Below the pieces are notes generated by a model. It saw only the letters and a program-made list of their open reading frames with translations, ran no database searches and was not told the DNA's origin. Shown here one piece after another: positions 1,351 through 7,670 of a stretch of 7,670 nt of DNA. Position 1 is the first letter of the stretch, and every line of letters begins with the position of its first letter. Origin of the DNA: Candidatus Mcinerneyibacteriota bacterium (GTDB lineage Bacteria > AUK180 > JAQVHJ01); contig DAOVMD010000132.1 of NCBI GenBank assembly GCA_030630935.1, positions 1-7,670 of the forward strand, given 5' to 3'. The translations under genes and the position numbers were made by a program.

Positions 1351-1379
1351 TTGACATTATTATATATATATGTTATAAT
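1351..1379 (+). promoter_or_regulatory. Consensus sigma70-type promoter of the hdr operon
   Basis: The -35 box TTGACA (1351-1356) and the -10 box TATAAT (1374-1379) are both perfect and are separated by exactly 17 bp. The -10 is also preceded by TG one base away (1371-1372), an extended -10 element. The spacer is an alternating TA tract. Transcription should begin near 1386, giving a leader of about 25 nt before the hdrC start codon. A match this complete suggests strong basal transcription unless a regulator intervenes. Confidence 0.85.
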
Positions 1380-1411: not shown

Positions 1412-1822
1412 ATGAAAATAAACATCAAGAATGAAGAGATACGCAGTGAGCGAGTTCTTCGGATAGAAGAGATTGCCGGAGAGAACATTTTTAAATGTTA
1501 TCAATGCGGGAAATGTTCTGCTGGTTGTCCGAGTGCAGATCAGATGGACCTTTTACCTAATCAAGTTGTCCGGAATCTTCAGATAGGGAAGGTTGACGCT
1601 GTATTAAATTCAAAAAGTATTTGGATATGTGCATCCTGTTTTATGTGTTGGACCAGATGTCCTCGCGGAGTAAATTTAACAGCCTTATTTGAAGCCTGCC
1701 GTCAAGTTAAGCTTCGTGAGAACATTGATGAAGTTGGATTAAAGCAGACTATTCAGGAAGCTGAAGAGATGGATATTCCCCAGATCGCAGTAATTTCAGT
1801 TTTAAGAAAATTAACAAGTTAG
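1412..1822 (+). CDS. hdrC: Heterodisulfide reductase subunit C-like iron-sulfur protein
   Basis: This 136-aa soluble protein carries two classic CxxCxxCxxxCP motifs: Cys29/32/35/39 and Cys73/76/79/83. Each should bind a [4Fe-4S] cluster. Text such as 'CYQCGKCSAGCP' and 'CASCFMCWTRCPRGVN' is typical of HdrC. Family knowledge: HdrC is the electron wire between HdrA and the catalytic HdrB. It is shorter than many methanogen HdrC proteins (often near 180-190 aa); the difference lies mainly in the C-terminal tail, while both cluster motifs are intact. It is the first gene of the operon and is followed by hdrB after 8 bp, with the hdrC stop overlapping the hdrB ribosome binding site, so translational coupling is likely. 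No transmembrane segment is present, which separates it from the membrane HdrE/DsrM type. Confidence 0.92.
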   Translation: MKINIKNEEIRSERVLRIEEIAGENIFKCYQCGKCSAGCPSADQMDLLPNQVVRNLQIGKVDAVLNSKSIWICASCFMCWTRCPRGVNLTALFEACRQVKLRENIDEVGLKQTIQEAEEMDIPQIAVISVLRKLTS

Positions 1823-1830
1823 GAGTAGAG

Positions 1831-2709
1831 ATGGAAGTATCTTATTTTCCGGGATGTACATTGAAGCAGACTGCAAAGAACTTTGAGACCTCTGCTATCA
1901 GTTCGAGTAAGCTTCTTGGGATTGAATTGAAAGAACTTTCCAGATGGAATTGCTGCGGAACTGTTTATTCATTAGCGACAGATGATTCTATGCATCACTT
2001 AGCTCCCATCAGGAATTTAATTCGAGTTCAGGAAGAAGGTTCCAAGGAAGTAGTAACGTTATGTTCAATGTGCTATAATACTCTTAAGCAGGCGAATGAA
2101 TTAGTCCGCGCTGAACCTGACCGGCTTCAGAAGTTAAATGATTTTATGTACCTTGAAGAAGATTACAAACCTGATTTAGAAGTTTACCACCTTGTAACTT
2201 ATATTAAGGACAATGTTGGTTATGAGAAATTAAAGGATAAGGTTACGAATCCTTTATCAGGATTAAAAGTTGCGGTCTATTATGGTTGTTTATTATTACG
2301 TCCTGATTCAATCAAATTAGATGACCGGGAGAATCCTCGAATAATGGAAGATATGATGGAAGCCCTTGGAGCTGAAGTAATAGATTTTCCTTATCACAAT
2401 GAGTGCTGCGGTTCATATCATACGCTTGGTAAAAGGGACTTAGTAATTGAGCGGACCAATAAAATTATTTCTGAAGCTAAGCTTGATGGAGCGGATGTAC
2501 TTGTATTGAGTTGTCCGGAATGCGACTTTAATCTTGATCATCGTCAAAAAAATACACTTGAGAAATATCCGAGTTTTGAAACGATGCCGGTTTTATATTT
2601 TACCCAATTAATGAATATTGCTTTAGGTGGCGACCTTGCAGATTGCGGGTTTGAATTGAATTATATTGATCCAATTCCCTTATTAAAAGATAAAGGGATA
2701 TTAAAATAG
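1831..2709 (+). CDS. hdrB: Heterodisulfide reductase subunit B-like protein, two CCG domains
   Basis: This 292-aa protein has two cysteine-rich (CCG, PF02754-type) domains. The first shows Cys9, Cys41-Cys42 and Cys78-x-x-Cys81, an exact fit to CX31CCX35CxxC. The second shows Cys153, Cys192-Cys193 and Cys228-x-x-Cys231 (CX38CCX34CxxC). In methanogen HdrB these motifs hold two noncubane [4Fe-4S] clusters that cleave the CoM-S-S-CoB disulfide. Both sets are complete here, so a catalytic role is plausible, but the natural substrate in a bacterium is unknown; it may be another disulfide or simply a redox relay. The start ATG follows AGGAG (1821-1825) by 5 nt. The gene lies between hdrC and hdrA, the usual partners, and has no signal peptide or membrane segment. 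Confidence 0.93.
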   Translation: MEVSYFPGCTLKQTAKNFETSAISSSKLLGIELKELSRWNCCGTVYSLATDDSMHHLAPIRNLIRVQEEGSKEVVTLCSMCYNTLKQANELVRAEPDRLQKLNDFMYLEEDYKPDLEVYHLVTYIKDNVGYEKLKDKVTNPLSGLKVAVYYGCLLLRPDSIKLDDRENPRIMEDMMEALGAEVIDFPYHNECCGSYHTLGKRDLVIERTNKIISEAKLDGADVLVLSCPECDFNLDHRQKNTLEKYPSFETMPVLYFTQLMNIALGGDLADCGFELNYIDPIPLLKDKGILK

Positions 2710-2725
2710 ATTTGGAGTAGACCTT

Positions 2726-4711
2726 ATGAAGAGAATAGGCGTGTTTGTTTGTCATTGCGGTCTGAACATAGCCGGAAGTGTTGATATTGACAAGATAGTT
2801 GAAGAGGTTTCAAAATTAAATCATATTGTATATGTAAAAAATTATATTTTTCTTTGTTCTCAACCGGGTCAGCAGATGGTTGAAGATATAGTGAAGGAAC
2901 ATAACCTTGACGGTTTTATTGTTGCAAACTGTTCACCCACACTACATGAAAAGACTTTCAGGAATACTGCTATTCGAGCCGGGATGAATCCTTACTTTGT
3001 TGAAGTTGCAAATATTAGGGAACAGAGTTCCTGGCCTCATAGTAAGGAGAAGAAAAAAGCAACTCAGAAAGCTTTACTGATAATTAAAGCAACAATTAAA
3101 AAATTAGTTAAGAATCTTGACTACCATTCCAAACGAGTAGATTTAACCAAGCGTGCATTAATAATCGGTGGAGGTATTGCAGGGATACAAGCAGCTCTTG
3201 ACATTGCAGATGGCGGGTATGAGGTTGTTTTACTTGACAGGCAGCAATCCATTGGTGGGCATATGGCACAGATTTCTGAGACTTTTCCAACACTTGATTG
3301 CCCGCAATGTATAATGACACCAAAGATGACGGAAGTAGGGAATCACCCTAAAATTATTTTAAGGACATATTCCGAAGTTGAAGAAGTAACCGGATTTATT
3401 GGAAACTTTACAGTTAAGATTCGTAAAAAAGCAACGAGTGTGGATTGGACTAAATGTACAGGCTGCGGAGAATGTATTGCCAAGTGTCCTGCAAAGCCCT
3501 TATCCGTATTTGACTGTTTTCTTTCAAAAGGTACCGCAATGTATAGAGATTTTGAACAAGCAGTTCCAAGTTTCCCTGTTATCAATAGAGATGCATGTTT
3601 ATATTTTCAGAAAGGCGTTTGCCGAATTTGTGAAAAGGTCTGTCCCATTGACGCGATTGATTTTGAACAGCAGGATGAGATAGTTGAAGAGCAGGTTGGT
3701 GCGATTATCATTGCCACTGGTTATGATCTAATGCCGATGTCTGAACAGGGTGAATATGGTGCGGGCAAATACAAGGATGTAATTGACGGCATGCAGTTTG
3801 AGAGACTTCTTGCTTCAACCGGGCCTTATGCCGGGGATGTTAAGAGGCCGTCTGATGAGAAGGTTCCTGATAGCGTTGTTTTTATTCAATGTGCCGGGTC
3901 CCGTGATCCCGAATCAAACTATCCATATTGTTCAAAGGTCTGCTGTATGTACATAGCGAAGCAAGCATTACTATATAAACATAATGTCCATCATGGTCAG
4001 GCATATATTTTTTATATTGACATCAGGTCTACCGGCAAGGGCTATGAAGAATTTGTTCAGAGAGTTCAGGAAGAGTCAGGAGTAATTTATATCAGGGGAA
4101 AAGCTTCGAAGGTTTTTAAACGCGGAGATAAAATGGTAGTTTGGGGAGTTGACACTTTAACCGGTCAAACGGTTGAAATAGAGACCGACCTTGTTGTTCT
4201 TGCATCAGCAATGATTCCTTCTTCCGGTGCTTTTACTCTTGCATCGAAGACACGATTAGCTACAGACAAGTATGGTTGGTTTTCAGAAGCTCATCCGAAA
4301 TTAAGACCTGTTGAAAGTGTAACCGGTGGATATTATCTTGCAGGGGCCGCCCAGGCACCGAAGGATATTCCTGAGACTGTTACCCATGCGAGTGGTGCTG
4401 CGAGTAAAGTCCTTGCATTATTCTCAAATGACTTTTTAGAGAGCGATCCTATAATTGTTCAGGTTGATCCGGAAATTTGTAATCGCTGCGGGTATTGTGA
4501 AGCGGTCTGTGCTTATGATGCAGTAAAATTAAATTCAAAGACAAAAATTGCCGAAGTAAATGAAGTTTTATGTGAAGGCTGTGGAGCATGTGCGGCGACT
4601 TGTCCGTCCGGAGCGATTTCGCATAGGAATAATACCAGGAGCCAGATATTTGATATGATTTCTGTTGCAACTGAAGATTATAAAGAAATAACCACAAAAT
4701 TTGATAAATAA
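2726..4711 (+). CDS. hdrA: Heterodisulfide reductase subunit A, FAD/iron-sulfur (electron-bifurcating type)
   Basis: At 661 aa this is a full-length, single-copy HdrA. Order of parts: an N-terminal domain (about 1-135) with Cys9, Cys11, Cys44 and Cys69; an FAD-binding thioredoxin-reductase-like fold starting at GGGIAG (148-153) with 'SIGGHM' and 'DCPQC' (192-195); an inserted ferredoxin domain (about 240-312) with Cys244/247/250/254 and Cys291/299/302/306; the second FAD half with 'CAGSRD...YCSKVCC' (Cys389, 402, 406, 407); and a C-terminal ferredoxin (about 578-632) with Cys585/588/591/595 and Cys616/619/622/626. Family knowledge: the HdrA FAD is the bifurcation site, and ferredoxin is reduced through its cluster chain. 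The second inserted-ferredoxin motif has 7 residues between its first two Cys instead of 2; I recall this spacing from bacterial relatives. No in-frame UGA selenocysteine is present. GGAG at 2714-2717 precedes the start by 8 nt. Confidence 0.95.
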   Translation: MKRIGVFVCHCGLNIAGSVDIDKIVEEVSKLNHIVYVKNYIFLCSQPGQQMVEDIVKEHNLDGFIVANCSPTLHEKTFRNTAIRAGMNPYFVEVANIREQSSWPHSKEKKKATQKALLIIKATIKKLVKNLDYHSKRVDLTKRALIIGGGIAGIQAALDIADGGYEVVLLDRQQSIGGHMAQISETFPTLDCPQCIMTPKMTEVGNHPKIILRTYSEVEEVTGFIGNFTVKIRKKATSVDWTKCTGCGECIAKCPAKPLSVFDCFLSKGTAMYRDFEQAVPSFPVINRDACLYFQKGVCRICEKVCPIDAIDFEQQDEIVEEQVGAIIIATGYDLMPMSEQGEYGAGKYKDVIDGMQFERLLASTGPYAGDVKRPSDEKVPDSVVFIQCAGSRDPESNYPYCSKVCCMYIAKQALLYKHNVHHGQAYIFYIDIRSTGKGYEEFVQRVQEESGVIYIRGKASKVFKRGDKMVVWGVDTLTGQTVEIETDLVVLASAMIPSSGAFTLASKTRLATDKYGWFSEAHPKLRPVESVTGGYYLAGAAQAPKDIPETVTHASGAASKVLALFSNDFLESDPIIVQVDPEICNRCGYCEAVCAYDAVKLNSKTKIAEVNEVLCEGCGACAATCPSGAISHRNNTRSQIFDMISVATEDYKEITTKFDK

Positions 4712-4725
4712 AGAGAGGAATTCAA

Positions 4726-5493
4726 ATGACTACAGTTAAACCAAGCGGAGATAAACCTAATTTACCTCCCACTAGTCGTTTAATAGAAGTTTTCATTATG
4801 GGAAAGAGCTATAAGGTACCGGAAACACTTACCATTCAAAAAGCAATTGAGTGGGCAGGTTTTCAATTCATCCGGAGTTGCGGCTGCCGTGGCGGAATCT
4901 GCGGAGCGTGTCCGACAATTTATAGAACTAAAGATGATTATAAACTAAAAGTCGGTCTTGCTTGCCAGACAGTTGCAGAAGATGGGATGTATCTGGTTCA
5001 GCTTCCATTTGTTCCGGTTCAGAAAGCGATTTATAATATTGAAGAAGAAAAGGCAACCCTTGCCGCAATTGAAAAACATTATCCTGAAACCTTTCGTTGT
5101 GTTCAATGTAATACTTGTACAAAAGCATGTCCCATGGACATTGAAGTTATGCAGTACATTGCGGAGATTATAAAAGGTGATTATAAAAAAGCAGCAGAAC
5201 TTTCACATTCGTGTATTATGTGCGGGATGTGTGCAGCCCGTTGTCCTGCTGAGCTTCAGCAATTTAATGTTGCAATGTTTATTAGACGAATGTATGGACG
5301 TTATGTATTACCGAAAGCAGAACATTTAAAAAACAGAGTTGAAGATATTGAAGCAGGAAAATATGAACCGATGCTTGATGAACTTCAACAAGTTTCAAGC
5401 GGAGAATTAGTGAAACGGTATAAAGAACGTGAATGGGAACCGGAGCCGTATGAAGTTCCGGATTGGAAACCAAAAGATACAAAATACTTATAA
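4726..5493 (+). CDS. frdB: Fumarate reductase-like iron-sulfur subunit ([2Fe-2S] + HdrC-like dicluster)
   Basis: This 255-aa protein has an N-terminal plant-type [2Fe-2S] domain (about 18-95) with 'CRGGICGAC' (Cys54/59/62) and 'LACQT' (Cys80); Cys52 is an extra nearby cysteine. A dicluster domain follows with Cys125/128/131/135 and Cys163/166/169/173, both in CxxCxxCxxxCP form. The first half matches SdhB/FrdB. The second half is closer to HdrC/GlpC: SdhB normally has a three-Cys [3Fe-4S] motif and a longer linker there (about 46 residues, against 27 here). TfrB, the thiol:fumarate reductase B subunit of methanogens, has the same two parts plus a CCG domain, which is absent here. The C-terminal 60 residues are charged and end in a Trp/Pro/Glu-rich tail. 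Role inferred: carries electrons between the Hdr module and the flavoprotein 20 bp downstream. The start at 4726 follows AGAGGA; Met25 is a less likely start. Confidence 0.85.
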   Translation: MTTVKPSGDKPNLPPTSRLIEVFIMGKSYKVPETLTIQKAIEWAGFQFIRSCGCRGGICGACPTIYRTKDDYKLKVGLACQTVAEDGMYLVQLPFVPVQKAIYNIEEEKATLAAIEKHYPETFRCVQCNTCTKACPMDIEVMQYIAEIIKGDYKKAAELSHSCIMCGMCAARCPAELQQFNVAMFIRRMYGRYVLPKAEHLKNRVEDIEAGKYEPMLDELQQVSSGELVKRYKEREWEPEPYEVPDWKPKDTKYL

Positions 5494-5502
5494 TAATTTT
5501 AT

Positions 5503-5507
5503 GGAGG
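5503..5507 (+). promoter_or_regulatory. Ribosome binding site deciding the flavoprotein start
   Basis: GGAGG lies 6 nt before the ATG at 5514. An upstream in-frame ATG at 5463 would overlap the preceding gene by 31 bp, lacks such a site and would add 17 residues of no family character, so 5514 is preferred. Confidence 0.85.
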
Positions 5508-5513
5508 TTTAAG

Positions 5514-7199
5514 ATGGGTTATACCCCCGAGATGAAAGAATTAATAAAAGTGGTTGAGAAGACCCGACCTGAAAGAATCAGGAAGATAAAAAATGGTCAT
5601 TCATATCCGGCATTATCTTTAGAAGCACGGACAAAAGTCCTGGAGAAATTTCATCCTGATTATAAGCCAAGCGGCAGGAAGGAGATACTTGTTGGTCCGA
5701 ATAAAGGTGATAAGAAAACTTATCCTGAAGAATTTGTTGACCTTCTTCATTCCAGAAGCCGTCTTTCAAATATCGAAGATTTTGAGAAGATCATCGAAAA
5801 ACCTGACTATGAAACAGATGTTTTAGTCATAGGCGCCGGCGGTGCGGGATCTTCAGCAGCACTAACAGCAATGAATCACGGTCAGAAAGTTATTCTATCT
5901 ACAAAGCTCAGGCAGGGTGATGCGAATACAGTCATGGCGGAAGGCGGAATACAAGGTGCTACACAGGAAGTAGATTCCCCTTATTACCATTATCTCGATA
6001 CGATTGGCGGAGGACATTTCACAAATGACCCGAAACTTGTAAAGGCATTAGTAACCGATGCACCCTTAGTTATTGAGTGGCTCGAATCTCTGGGTATGAT
6101 GTTTGATAAAGAATCTGACGGCAGATTAAAAGTTCTTAAAGGCGGTGGTGTTTGTAGAAGGCGAATGCATTCTTCTGCGGACATGACAGGCTCTGAAATC
6201 ATGAGAGTTTTAAGAGATGAAATTAATAATAATCCCGATAAAATTACACCCCTGGAATTTTCACCTGCAGTAGAGTTAATCCTTGATTCTGCCGGGAAAT
6301 GTATGGGGGCAGTACTTTATAATTTGGAGACGAAAGAATATTATGTAGTTCATGCAAAAGCAGTGATTTTAGCGACTGGCGGTTTTGGACGTTTACATAT
6401 TCAAGGTTTTGCAACAACAAACCATTATGGTGCAACTGCAGATGGAATTATCATGGCATATCGTGCAGGAGCAAAACATCGATTTATGTATGCGACTCAA
6501 TATCACCCGACTGGTGCGGCTTTCCCGGAACAGAATATTGGGTTGTTAATTACCGAGAAGACCAGAACCCTTGGAGCTGAACCTATTAATAAGCATGGCG
6601 AAGAATTTGTATTTCCACTCGAGCCCAGAGACGTTGAAGCAGCAAGTATAATTAAGGAATGTATTGAAAATAAAAATGGCATTGCAACTCCCGCCGGACG
6701 ATTAGGAATTTGGTTAGATTCTCCCATGGTTGATATTCTAAGGGGACCGGGTACAGTAGAACACGCACTTGAAGCAAAGCATATTCAATTTATGAGATAC
6801 AATATAGATATTTCCAAGGAACCAATGCTGATCTATCCTACTCTTCATTATCAAAATGGCGGGATTGAAATTGATGAGTGGGGGGCAACTTCTATCCCGG
6901 GCTTATATGCCGCAGGTGAAGTTTCAGGTGGAATTCACGGTGAGAATAGATTAATGGGAAATTCTTTACTTGATATAAATGTTTTTGGCCGCAGGTCAGG
7001 GAAAAAAGCTTCTGAATATGTTAGTAAGGGAGTTAAGTTCGGTAAACCGTCATTGGATCATGTTAAAAAATATAATGCAGAATTAAAAGAAGCCGGACTG
7101 GGTGATGATTCAATTGCACCAATGCTTCTACCCGATTATAGTAATCCAAAGGTCAGGGAGAAACAATTAACAGCATTAAAATTTGGAACATTACAATAA
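5514..7199 (+). CDS. frdA: Fumarate reductase/succinate dehydrogenase-like flavoprotein (TfrA/FrdA family)
   Basis: This 561-aa protein has an FAD Rossmann motif 'VIGAGGAG' (105-112) and, by comparison with E. coli FrdA, the whole dicarboxylate active site: His331 in HPTG, Glu348 in 'LLITE', Arg351, the proton-shuttle Arg372 in 'PRD', His445 in 'LHYQNGG' and Arg479 in 'HGENRL'. This supports interconversion of fumarate and succinate in the cytoplasm. Oddities: Asn138 in 'DANTVMAEGG' replaces the His that links FAD covalently in SdhA/FrdA, so FAD is probably non-covalent. About 98 residues precede the FAD domain, where FrdA has fewer than 10. The chain ends about 70 residues after the last active-site stretch, so the helical C-terminal domain of SdhA/FrdA is missing, and mvhD follows after 13 bp so it is not hidden by a frameshift. 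Related flavoproteins (aspartate oxidase, urocanate reductase) are alternatives but fit the neighbours less well. Confidence 0.87.
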   Translation: MGYTPEMKELIKVVEKTRPERIRKIKNGHSYPALSLEARTKVLEKFHPDYKPSGRKEILVGPNKGDKKTYPEEFVDLLHSRSRLSNIEDFEKIIEKPDYETDVLVIGAGGAGSSAALTAMNHGQKVILSTKLRQGDANTVMAEGGIQGATQEVDSPYYHYLDTIGGGHFTNDPKLVKALVTDAPLVIEWLESLGMMFDKESDGRLKVLKGGGVCRRRMHSSADMTGSEIMRVLRDEINNNPDKITPLEFSPAVELILDSAGKCMGAVLYNLETKEYYVVHAKAVILATGGFGRLHIQGFATTNHYGATADGIIMAYRAGAKHRFMYATQYHPTGAAFPEQNIGLLITEKTRTLGAEPINKHGEEFVFPLEPRDVEAASIIKECIENKNGIATPAGRLGIWLDSPMVDILRGPGTVEHALEAKHIQFMRYNIDISKEPMLIYPTLHYQNGGIEIDEWGATSIPGLYAAGEVSGGIHGENRLMGNSLLDINVFGRRSGKKASEYVSKGVKFGKPSLDHVKKYNAELKEAGLGDDSIAPMLLPDYSNPKVREKQLTALKFGTLQ

Positions 7200-7200
7200 C

Positions 7201-7205
7201 AGGAG
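7201..7205 (+). promoter_or_regulatory. Ribosome binding site deciding the mvhD start
   Basis: AGGAG lies 7 nt before the ATG at 7213. An in-frame ATG at 7183 lies inside the preceding gene and would add ten residues without family character. Confidence 0.85.
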
Positions 7206-7212
7206 AAAATTA

Positions 7213-7638
7213 ATGAGTGAAAATAAAGAACCCAAAATAGTTGGTTTTTTATGCAAGTGGTGTACTTCCGCTGCTGCTGATCTTGCAGGAACATCAAGAA
7301 CACAATATCCTGCTTCGATTCGGCCTATTAAAGTTATGTGCAGCGGATCAGTGGATATGTCCTACATTCTCCGAGCCCTTTTAATGGGAGCTGACGGTGT
7401 TTTAGTCGGGGGGTGTCATCCCGCGGATTGTCACTATATCTCAGGAAATTATAAGGCAAGAAGAAGAATTGCAATATTAAAAAATATATTTGAAACTTTA
7501 GGTCTCGATAGCGAGAGAATTGAATTGAAATGGATCAGTGCCTCTGAAGGTACAAAATTTGCCAGAACAGTTGAAGCTTTCACTAATAAATTAGCGGAGA
7601 AAGGTCCGAATGATTTTGAAAAATTATGGAATATTTAG
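7213..7638 (+). CDS. mvhD: MvhD/FlpD-type [2Fe-2S] adaptor protein
   Basis: This 141-aa protein is the full usual length of the MvhD/FlpD family. The five cysteines expected for the [2Fe-2S] site are visible: Cys14 and Cys17 (CKWC), Cys43 (MCSG), Cys68 and Cys73 (GCHPADCHY). The 'SGNYKARRR' and 'WISASEGTKF' stretches are also typical. Family knowledge: MvhD docks on HdrA and passes electrons to its FAD from a partner, which is the Mvh [NiFe]-hydrogenase in many methanogens and formate dehydrogenase, MetF-type or Flox-type enzymes elsewhere. Its presence as the sixth gene of the cluster suggests this HdrA takes or gives electrons through an external oxidoreductase, possibly encoded by the next gene. 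It is a separate protein here, not fused to HdrA or to a hydrogenase subunit. Confidence 0.93.
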   Translation: MSENKEPKIVGFLCKWCTSAAADLAGTSRTQYPASIRPIKVMCSGSVDMSYILRALLMGADGVLVGGCHPADCHYISGNYKARRRIAILKNIFETLGLDSERIELKWISASEGTKFARTVEAFTNKLAEKGPNDFEKLWNI

Positions 7639-7644
7639 CTAATT

Positions 7645-7651
7645 AAAGGAG
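7645..7651 (+). promoter_or_regulatory. Ribosome binding site of the next gene
   Basis: AAAGGAG lies 7 nt before the ATG at 7659. It shows that a seventh gene of the operon begins at the window edge. Confidence 0.75.
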
Positions 7652-7658
7652 AAATTAA

Positions 7659-7670
7659 ATGGCTATCTCA
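7659..7670 (+). CDS. Start of a seventh operon gene (3' partial, four codons)
   Basis: Only Met-Ala-Ile-Ser is visible, 20 bp after the mvhD stop and behind a strong ribosome binding site. The product cannot be named from four residues. From the context, an electron-donating partner of MvhD (hydrogenase, formate dehydrogenase, NADH-oxidising flavoprotein or methylene-tetrahydrofolate reductase) or a fumarate/succinate pathway enzyme would be reasonable candidates, but this is inference. Confidence 0.7.

Follow-up and report, generated by a model that had tools for sequence, protein, structure and literature searches.

Gene content and organization of the operon

The window, which is the whole 7,670-bp stretch of DNA analyzed, is one entire contig (C59) of a metagenome-assembled genome (MAG) of 3.16 Mb in 471 contigs with 80% completeness. 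Six genes in the order hdrC-hdrB-hdrA-frdB-frdA-mvhD lie on its plus strand at positions 1412-7638, with intergenic gaps of 8-20 bp and a Shine-Dalgarno-like sequence before each gene. Genes encoding an HdrC (1412..1822; 136 aa; TIGR03290, 2.2e-21) with two CxxCxxCxxxC [4Fe-4S] motifs, an HdrB (1831..2709; 292 aa; TIGR03288, 3.1e-51) with two CCG domains, and an HdrA (2726..4711; 661 aa; HdrA2, 3.3e-226), a flavin/iron-sulfur subunit of the bifurcating type with a C-terminal 2x[4Fe-4S] ferredoxin domain, are followed by an frdB-like gene (4726..5493; 255 aa; Pfam Fer2 and Fer4 families), by frdA (5514..7199; 561 aa; FAD_binding_2, 4.4e-73), encoding a fumarate-reductase-type flavoprotein, and by mvhD (flpD; 7213..7638; 141 aa; PF02662, 4.7e-51), encoding a [2Fe-2S] adaptor. 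The start of frdA was moved from TTG 5463 to ATG 5514 and that of mvhD is best placed at ATG 7213, both with a good Shine-Dalgarno sequence.

Upstream of the operon, a truncated MATE transporter gene (3-686) is followed by an AT-rich non-coding stretch of 725 bp (687-1411) containing the partial internal repeats AAAGCAAAACATTCTT and GAGCGAAGCGAAACT; the Rfam search, which included this stretch, returned no RNA match. A sigma-70-type promoter of the form TTGACA-17 nt-TATAAT with an extended -10 element (plus strand, 1351..1379; 12/12 matches) lies 32 bp 5' of hdrC, and an equally perfect TTGACA-17-TATAAT is found at the same position upstream of the operon of a second genome of the same family (G001, locus L055), despite diverged surrounding DNA. 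This genome has the identical six-gene order with protein identities of 80-87%, and its identity to the window is 78-93% at codon positions one and two but 42-63% at position three, which indicates that all six genes are under selection. The families and their order thus agree with the preliminary description of six tightly spaced genes combining HdrABC, MvhD and a fumarate reductase pair.

The window contig ends 32 bp past mvhD, and its final 59 bases (7612..7670, plus strand) recur exactly at the end of another contig of this MAG, C418, which carries the operon on with a gene referred to here as X, larA and mdh; the join is based on this overlap and on the mvhD-X-larA order within one contig of G001 (L055). 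X is a protein of 371 aa with an FrhB_FdhB_C domain and a [4Fe-4S] dicluster. The malate-racemase-like LarA and the malate dehydrogenase lie behind X (L142, C418 2802-5025). For the LarA-type racemase the best NCBIfam model was the LarAH6 malate racemase, at 322 bits and below the cut-off of 500, and the match of Mdh to TIGR01763 (449.6 bits; cut-off 351.9) identifies it as a genuine malate dehydrogenase. G001 has larA followed by a GlcD/GlcF-type hydroxyacid dehydrogenase in place of malate dehydrogenase (L055 5206-9024). A Ni-dependent malate racemase within a fumarate reductase operon would be unusual.

Cofactor ligands and catalytic residues

Regarding the Hdr module, HdrA aligns over its full length with 5odc_A (3e-185) and has the features of the HdrABC-MvhD family, namely the FAD domain, the conserved cluster cysteines and the conserved ferredoxin-like C-terminal domain. 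HdrB, whose matches among solved structures were 7bkb_B and 5odc_B, has the full set of ten cysteine ligands for its two non-cubane [4Fe-4S] clusters (C9, 41, 42, 78, 81 and C153, 192, 193, 228, 231). HdrC, best matched by 9sfi_E and 5odc_C (2e-16), is short (136 aa compared with 184 in solved HdrC) and keeps both [4Fe-4S] motifs, so that HdrABC was correctly called complete, and five of five MvhD cysteines align with those of solved MvhD (5odc_D, 3.5e-47).

The FrdB subunit has ligands for one [2Fe-2S] cluster (C54, 59, 62, 80) and two [4Fe-4S] clusters (C125-135 and C163-173, CxxCxxCxxxC twice), and these twelve cysteines are invariant in every sequence covering them. No [3Fe-4S] cluster motif was found in FrdB. 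In membrane Sdh/Frd enzymes the [3Fe-4S] cluster adjoins the quinone. As previously described, no membrane anchor gene lies between the six genes; an sdhC or other anchor gene for the pair was also looked for nearby and not found, and the Sdh_cyt family (PF01127) had no match anywhere in the 80%-complete MAG, which argues against a membrane Sdh with a distant anchor. With neither a covalent-FAD histidine, a [3Fe-4S] cluster nor an anchor, the pair falls outside membrane complex II.

At its N terminus FrdA carries a conserved extension of about 98 aa, and no Succ_DH_flav_C domain was recognized in it. In a quick tree it belongs to a tight subfamily of 54 sequences, whose separation from NadB and from the other FAD_binding_2 proteins is fully supported. 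It is not a mis-called NadB, the organism's own NadB being a different gene on contig C24 (540.6 bits), and FrdA scores 263.6 bits against the curated nadB model, below the cut-off of 452.75. Its closest solved structures are Sdh1, NadB and FrdA; an AlphaFold model based on 16 sequences was of poor quality (pLDDT 63), and the fold closest to it was that of E. coli FrdA (1kf6), on which it superposed loosely. The catalytic residues H331, T347, E348, R372, H445 and R479, presumably those binding and protonating fumarate, as judged by homology, are invariant wherever covered among the 54 aligned sequences. FrdA has Asn138 at the site where FAD is covalently attached to a histidine in Sdh/Frd, and this residue is Asn in 53/53 sequences. 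Soluble fumarate reductases, L-aspartate oxidase and other homologs whose FAD is bound noncovalently are reported to reduce fumarate but to be unable to oxidize succinate (PMC9557727); the Asn in place of the FAD-binding His therefore points to fumarate reduction rather than succinate oxidation.

Distribution of the gene set in other genomes

A search for FrdB in 386 genomes picked by kinship alone, without regard to Hdr, gave 37 positive genomes. Genes encoding HdrA, HdrB or MvhD were present within 10 kb of the FrdA-subfamily gene in 26 of 34 loci and 18 of 24 families, where by our own uncomputed estimate about one chance co-occurrence would be expected, given some four hdr clusters per 3-Mb genome. 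Several of the remaining loci are cut by contig ends, and three (L057, L102, L120) have frdBA alone. Sixteen of the 34 loci, from 10 families, hold the full set of hdrABC, mvhD and frdBA on one strand, as do four named loci besides.

The full set is extended by mvhG and mvhA (MvhADG-HdrABC-FrdAB) in ten loci representing six families, and some of these compact clusters sit in high-quality genomes. The order is hdrC-hdrB-hdrA-mvhD-frdB-frdA-mvhG-mvhA in L097, L100 and L110, and fumarase-OGOR-hdrA-mvhD-mvhG-hdrCB-frdBA-malic enzyme-mvhA in L059 and L060, which belong to the window's class. Neighboring genes in relatives encode 2-oxoglutarate:ferredoxin oxidoreductase (OGOR; korABC), fumarase, SucCD and malic enzyme, and several of the ten loci with mvhGA have OGOR, fumarase and malic enzyme genes alongside. 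Relatives G003-G005 have a more distant HdrA (41-43%). The gene order of the window is thus not unique to this contig, occurring in G001 too; the exact order is limited to the window's family, and the gene set is found in many families. This shuffling of gene order between families favors a functional link over common descent from a single cluster.

Operons of the form hdrC-hdrB-frdB-frdA without hdrA were also detected in sulfate reducers and GN15 (L012, L015, L016, L017, L018, L020, L114), the named loci being those of Desulfoferrobacter (L012), Desulforhabdus (L016) and GN15 (L020); this four-gene operon looks like a split thiol:fumarate reductase.

Proposed function and energetics

From the genes and their order, the complete set of cofactor and catalytic residues, the recurrence and the genomic context, we infer that the six subunits would form one physical complex with HdrB in contact with FrdB. 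As judged from sequence, the operon fairly probably encodes a cytoplasmic flavin-based electron-bifurcating fumarate reductase. Electrons would enter via MvhD and then reach the FAD of HdrA. The donor to MvhD would be MvhGA hydrogenase in relatives and probably X in the window's organism, as suggested by the adjoining mvhD gene and by the likeness of X to FdhB/Flx-type proteins. One electron of each pair would pass through the ferredoxin domain of HdrA to free ferredoxin; the other would travel via HdrC, HdrB and FrdB to the FAD of FrdA, where fumarate would be reduced to succinate, with two donor pairs yielding one succinate and a two-electron-reduced ferredoxin. Reduced ferredoxin could feed reductive steps such as that of OGOR, and fumarate would be supplied by malate dehydrogenase and fumarase.

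Calculated from textbook potentials, the energy change per fumarate is about -33 to -92 kJ across the donors NADH, H2 and formate, all of which make the reaction exergonic (about -33 to -49 kJ with NADH and -70 to -85 kJ with H2), whereas it is about zero or uphill with lactate or malate as donor.

Gene content of the MAG was assessed by targeted searches only, one of which used a joined query of seven proteins, and absences are soft given the completeness of 80%. Genes encoding fumarase and SucCD were detected on contig C314 and an OGOR-like 2-oxoacid oxidoreductase on C93. Regarding other donors, neither NiFe hydrogenase (PF00374; MvhA/MvhG), [FeFe] hydrogenase nor molybdopterin formate dehydrogenase (FdhA) was found in the 80%-complete MAG, and all three were rejected as donors in this organism. 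Pieces of molybdopterin oxidoreductase were detected in G001 only.

Alternative explanations

An unlikely alternative is a soluble enzyme of the thiol:fumarate reductase (Tfr) type, in which HdrCB and FrdBA would pass both electrons to fumarate, with HdrA-MvhD as a mere relay and no reduction of ferredoxin. Operons of hdrCB-frdBA without hdrA are common, and the finding of FrdAB without HdrA, or without any Hdr nearby (L057, L102, L120), implies that the pair can work otherwise. In methanogens, TfrB combines FrdB-like and HdrB-like parts in one chain, and the NCBIfam model for TfrB hits HdrB as well as FrdB of the window. A further precedent is the soluble five-subunit NADH-dependent fumarate reductase of Hydrogenobacter. 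For Aquifex, fumarate reductase subunits FrdA-E have been listed (PMC10052474). Against such a relay, HdrA has kept its C-terminal ferredoxin domain as well as the clusters known from bifurcating HdrA proteins, and the OGOR encoded next door requires reduced ferredoxin.

It is improbable that the operon encodes two enzymes, an HdrABC-MvhD with a disulfide substrate and an independent FrdAB, even though HdrB keeps both non-cubane clusters, which split heterodisulfide in methanogens, and FrdAB occurs alone in some genomes. CoM and CoB are not expected in bacteria. DsrC was not found in the MAG and was rejected as the partner of HdrB; among 13 genomes with the cluster, 11 had no match to DsrC, one had a match below the cut-off and one had a true match, so that the MAG and most relatives tested lack the disulfide protein that usually partners HdrB in bacteria. 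For a lone FrdAB, neither an electron donor nor an anchor is apparent, and the linkage of Hdr with Frd survives rearrangement of gene order.

The reverse reaction (confurcation), in which the oxidation of ferredoxin would pull that of succinate to serve a syntrophic propionate oxidizer, was raised in the preliminary description and is very improbable: HdrABC systems are reversible in principle and some relatives belong to groups with syntrophs (e.g., kin of Desulforhabdus), but Asn138 and the noncovalent FAD site it implies speak against it (PMC9557727), the process would be uphill by at least 33 kJ with NADH and by about 10-26 kJ at 1 Pa H2, and methylmalonyl-CoA mutase was not found in the 80%-complete MAG, which argues against propionate oxidation. 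What stands of the earlier suggestion of bifurcation is its forward direction, with fumarate as the exergonic acceptor driving ferredoxin reduction, which is well supported by anatomy and context: a soluble FrdAB is tied to HdrABC-MvhD, fumarate is the likely high-potential acceptor, and the pairing is found again in many families, with MvhGA or OGOR genes.

Comparison with known systems

The bifurcating fumarate reductase proposed here shares HdrABC, MvhD and their cofactor ligands with the methanogen complexes MvhADG-HdrABC and FdhAB-HdrABC, which differ in having CoM-S-S-CoB as acceptor and no FrdAB. In MetFV-HdrABC-MvhD of Moorella, listed in PMC5861303, HdrABC-MvhD is likewise joined to a two-subunit reductase replacing the disulfide, the acceptor being methylene-THF rather than fumarate. 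TfrAB also combines soluble subunits of the FrdA/FrdB type with an HdrB-like CCG part; however, TfrB is a fusion and HdrA and MvhD are lacking, whereas the CCG protein of the window is encoded by a separate gene, and scores against the curated models were far below the cut-offs (TfrA, 333 bits against 718; TfrB, 28 against 385). HdrB resembles SdhE (4.5e-50) of the 8-methylmenaquinol:fumarate reductase SdhABE, which by contrast is membrane-bound and quinol-linked, and the curated models again place the window proteins outside this family (SdhA, 230 against a cut-off of 1100; SdhE, 171 against 500).

The statement that no complex of exactly this make-up has been characterized holds in the literature surveyed, but the concept was anticipated in 2019, when an HdrABC-FlxABCD-KorABCD-TfrAB complex was proposed for tubeworm symbionts and Thioflavicoccus, with HdrA bifurcating to Kor/ferredoxin and to TfrAB (Rubin-Blum et al., 2019; PMC6315080). 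Co-expression of this cluster, with the exception of tfrAB, was later reported for Endoriftia (2024; PMC11636981). That system, a proposal rather than a characterized enzyme, has in common with the reading put forward here a proposed bifurcation by HdrA to ferredoxin/OGOR and to a TfrAB-type fumarate reductase, and a reductive tricarboxylic acid (rTCA) cycle context; its donor is FlxABCD (NADH), whereas the window has MvhD and X with no Flx in the operon. A cluster of TFR-OGOR-fumarase-SucCD-Mvh-Hdr in Ca. Celaenobacter, for which heterodisulfide was named as acceptor and fumarate was not proposed (2021; PMC8542988), matches as described the content of L059 and L060, unlike the window operon, which has neither mvhGA nor OGOR. 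New here are the versions with Mvh and with X, their broad distribution, the evidence on direction drawn from residues, and the compact operon.

The source of low-potential ferredoxin in bacteria using the rTCA cycle was called unresolved in 2023 (PMC10052474). It is an even call whether the loci described here represent a widespread, hitherto unrecognized class of soluble HdrABC-MvhD-FrdAB complexes, often with MvhGA, in which the reduction of fumarate would drive that of ferredoxin with electrons from H2 or another donor. In many anaerobic lineages, the 2-oxoglutarate synthase reaction would then be paid for by the fumarate reaction of the rTCA cycle. If so, this soluble coupling of fumarate to ferredoxin would answer the ferredoxin question for many anaerobes, energy would be conserved from fumarate reduction without quinones or a membrane, and fumarate would join the acceptors of flavin-based bifurcation, no fumarate enzyme being included in the 2018 list of such complexes (PMC5861303). 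The compact MvhADG-HdrABC-FrdAB clusters make the idea directly testable.

Other Hdr systems in the MAG and at further loci

A Flx-like NADH module with HdrA and MvhD was detected on contig C34 of the MAG (L006), where HdrA-MvhD is followed by AsrA/sulfhydrogenase-beta-like and NAD-binding AsrB-like proteins, a Flx-type NADH entry, and by another HdrA-like protein. Another Hdr system of the MAG, distinct from that of the window, is encoded by a large cluster on contig C109 (L007, 794-12112), which specifies two MvhD proteins, two X-like proteins and an HdrA-like fusion of 1484 aa. Instead of one HdrA, five loci (L008, L010, L011, L021, L023) have longer or split proteins resembling HdrA/Qmo, of about 1000 aa, encoded upstream of mvhD-X-frdBA.
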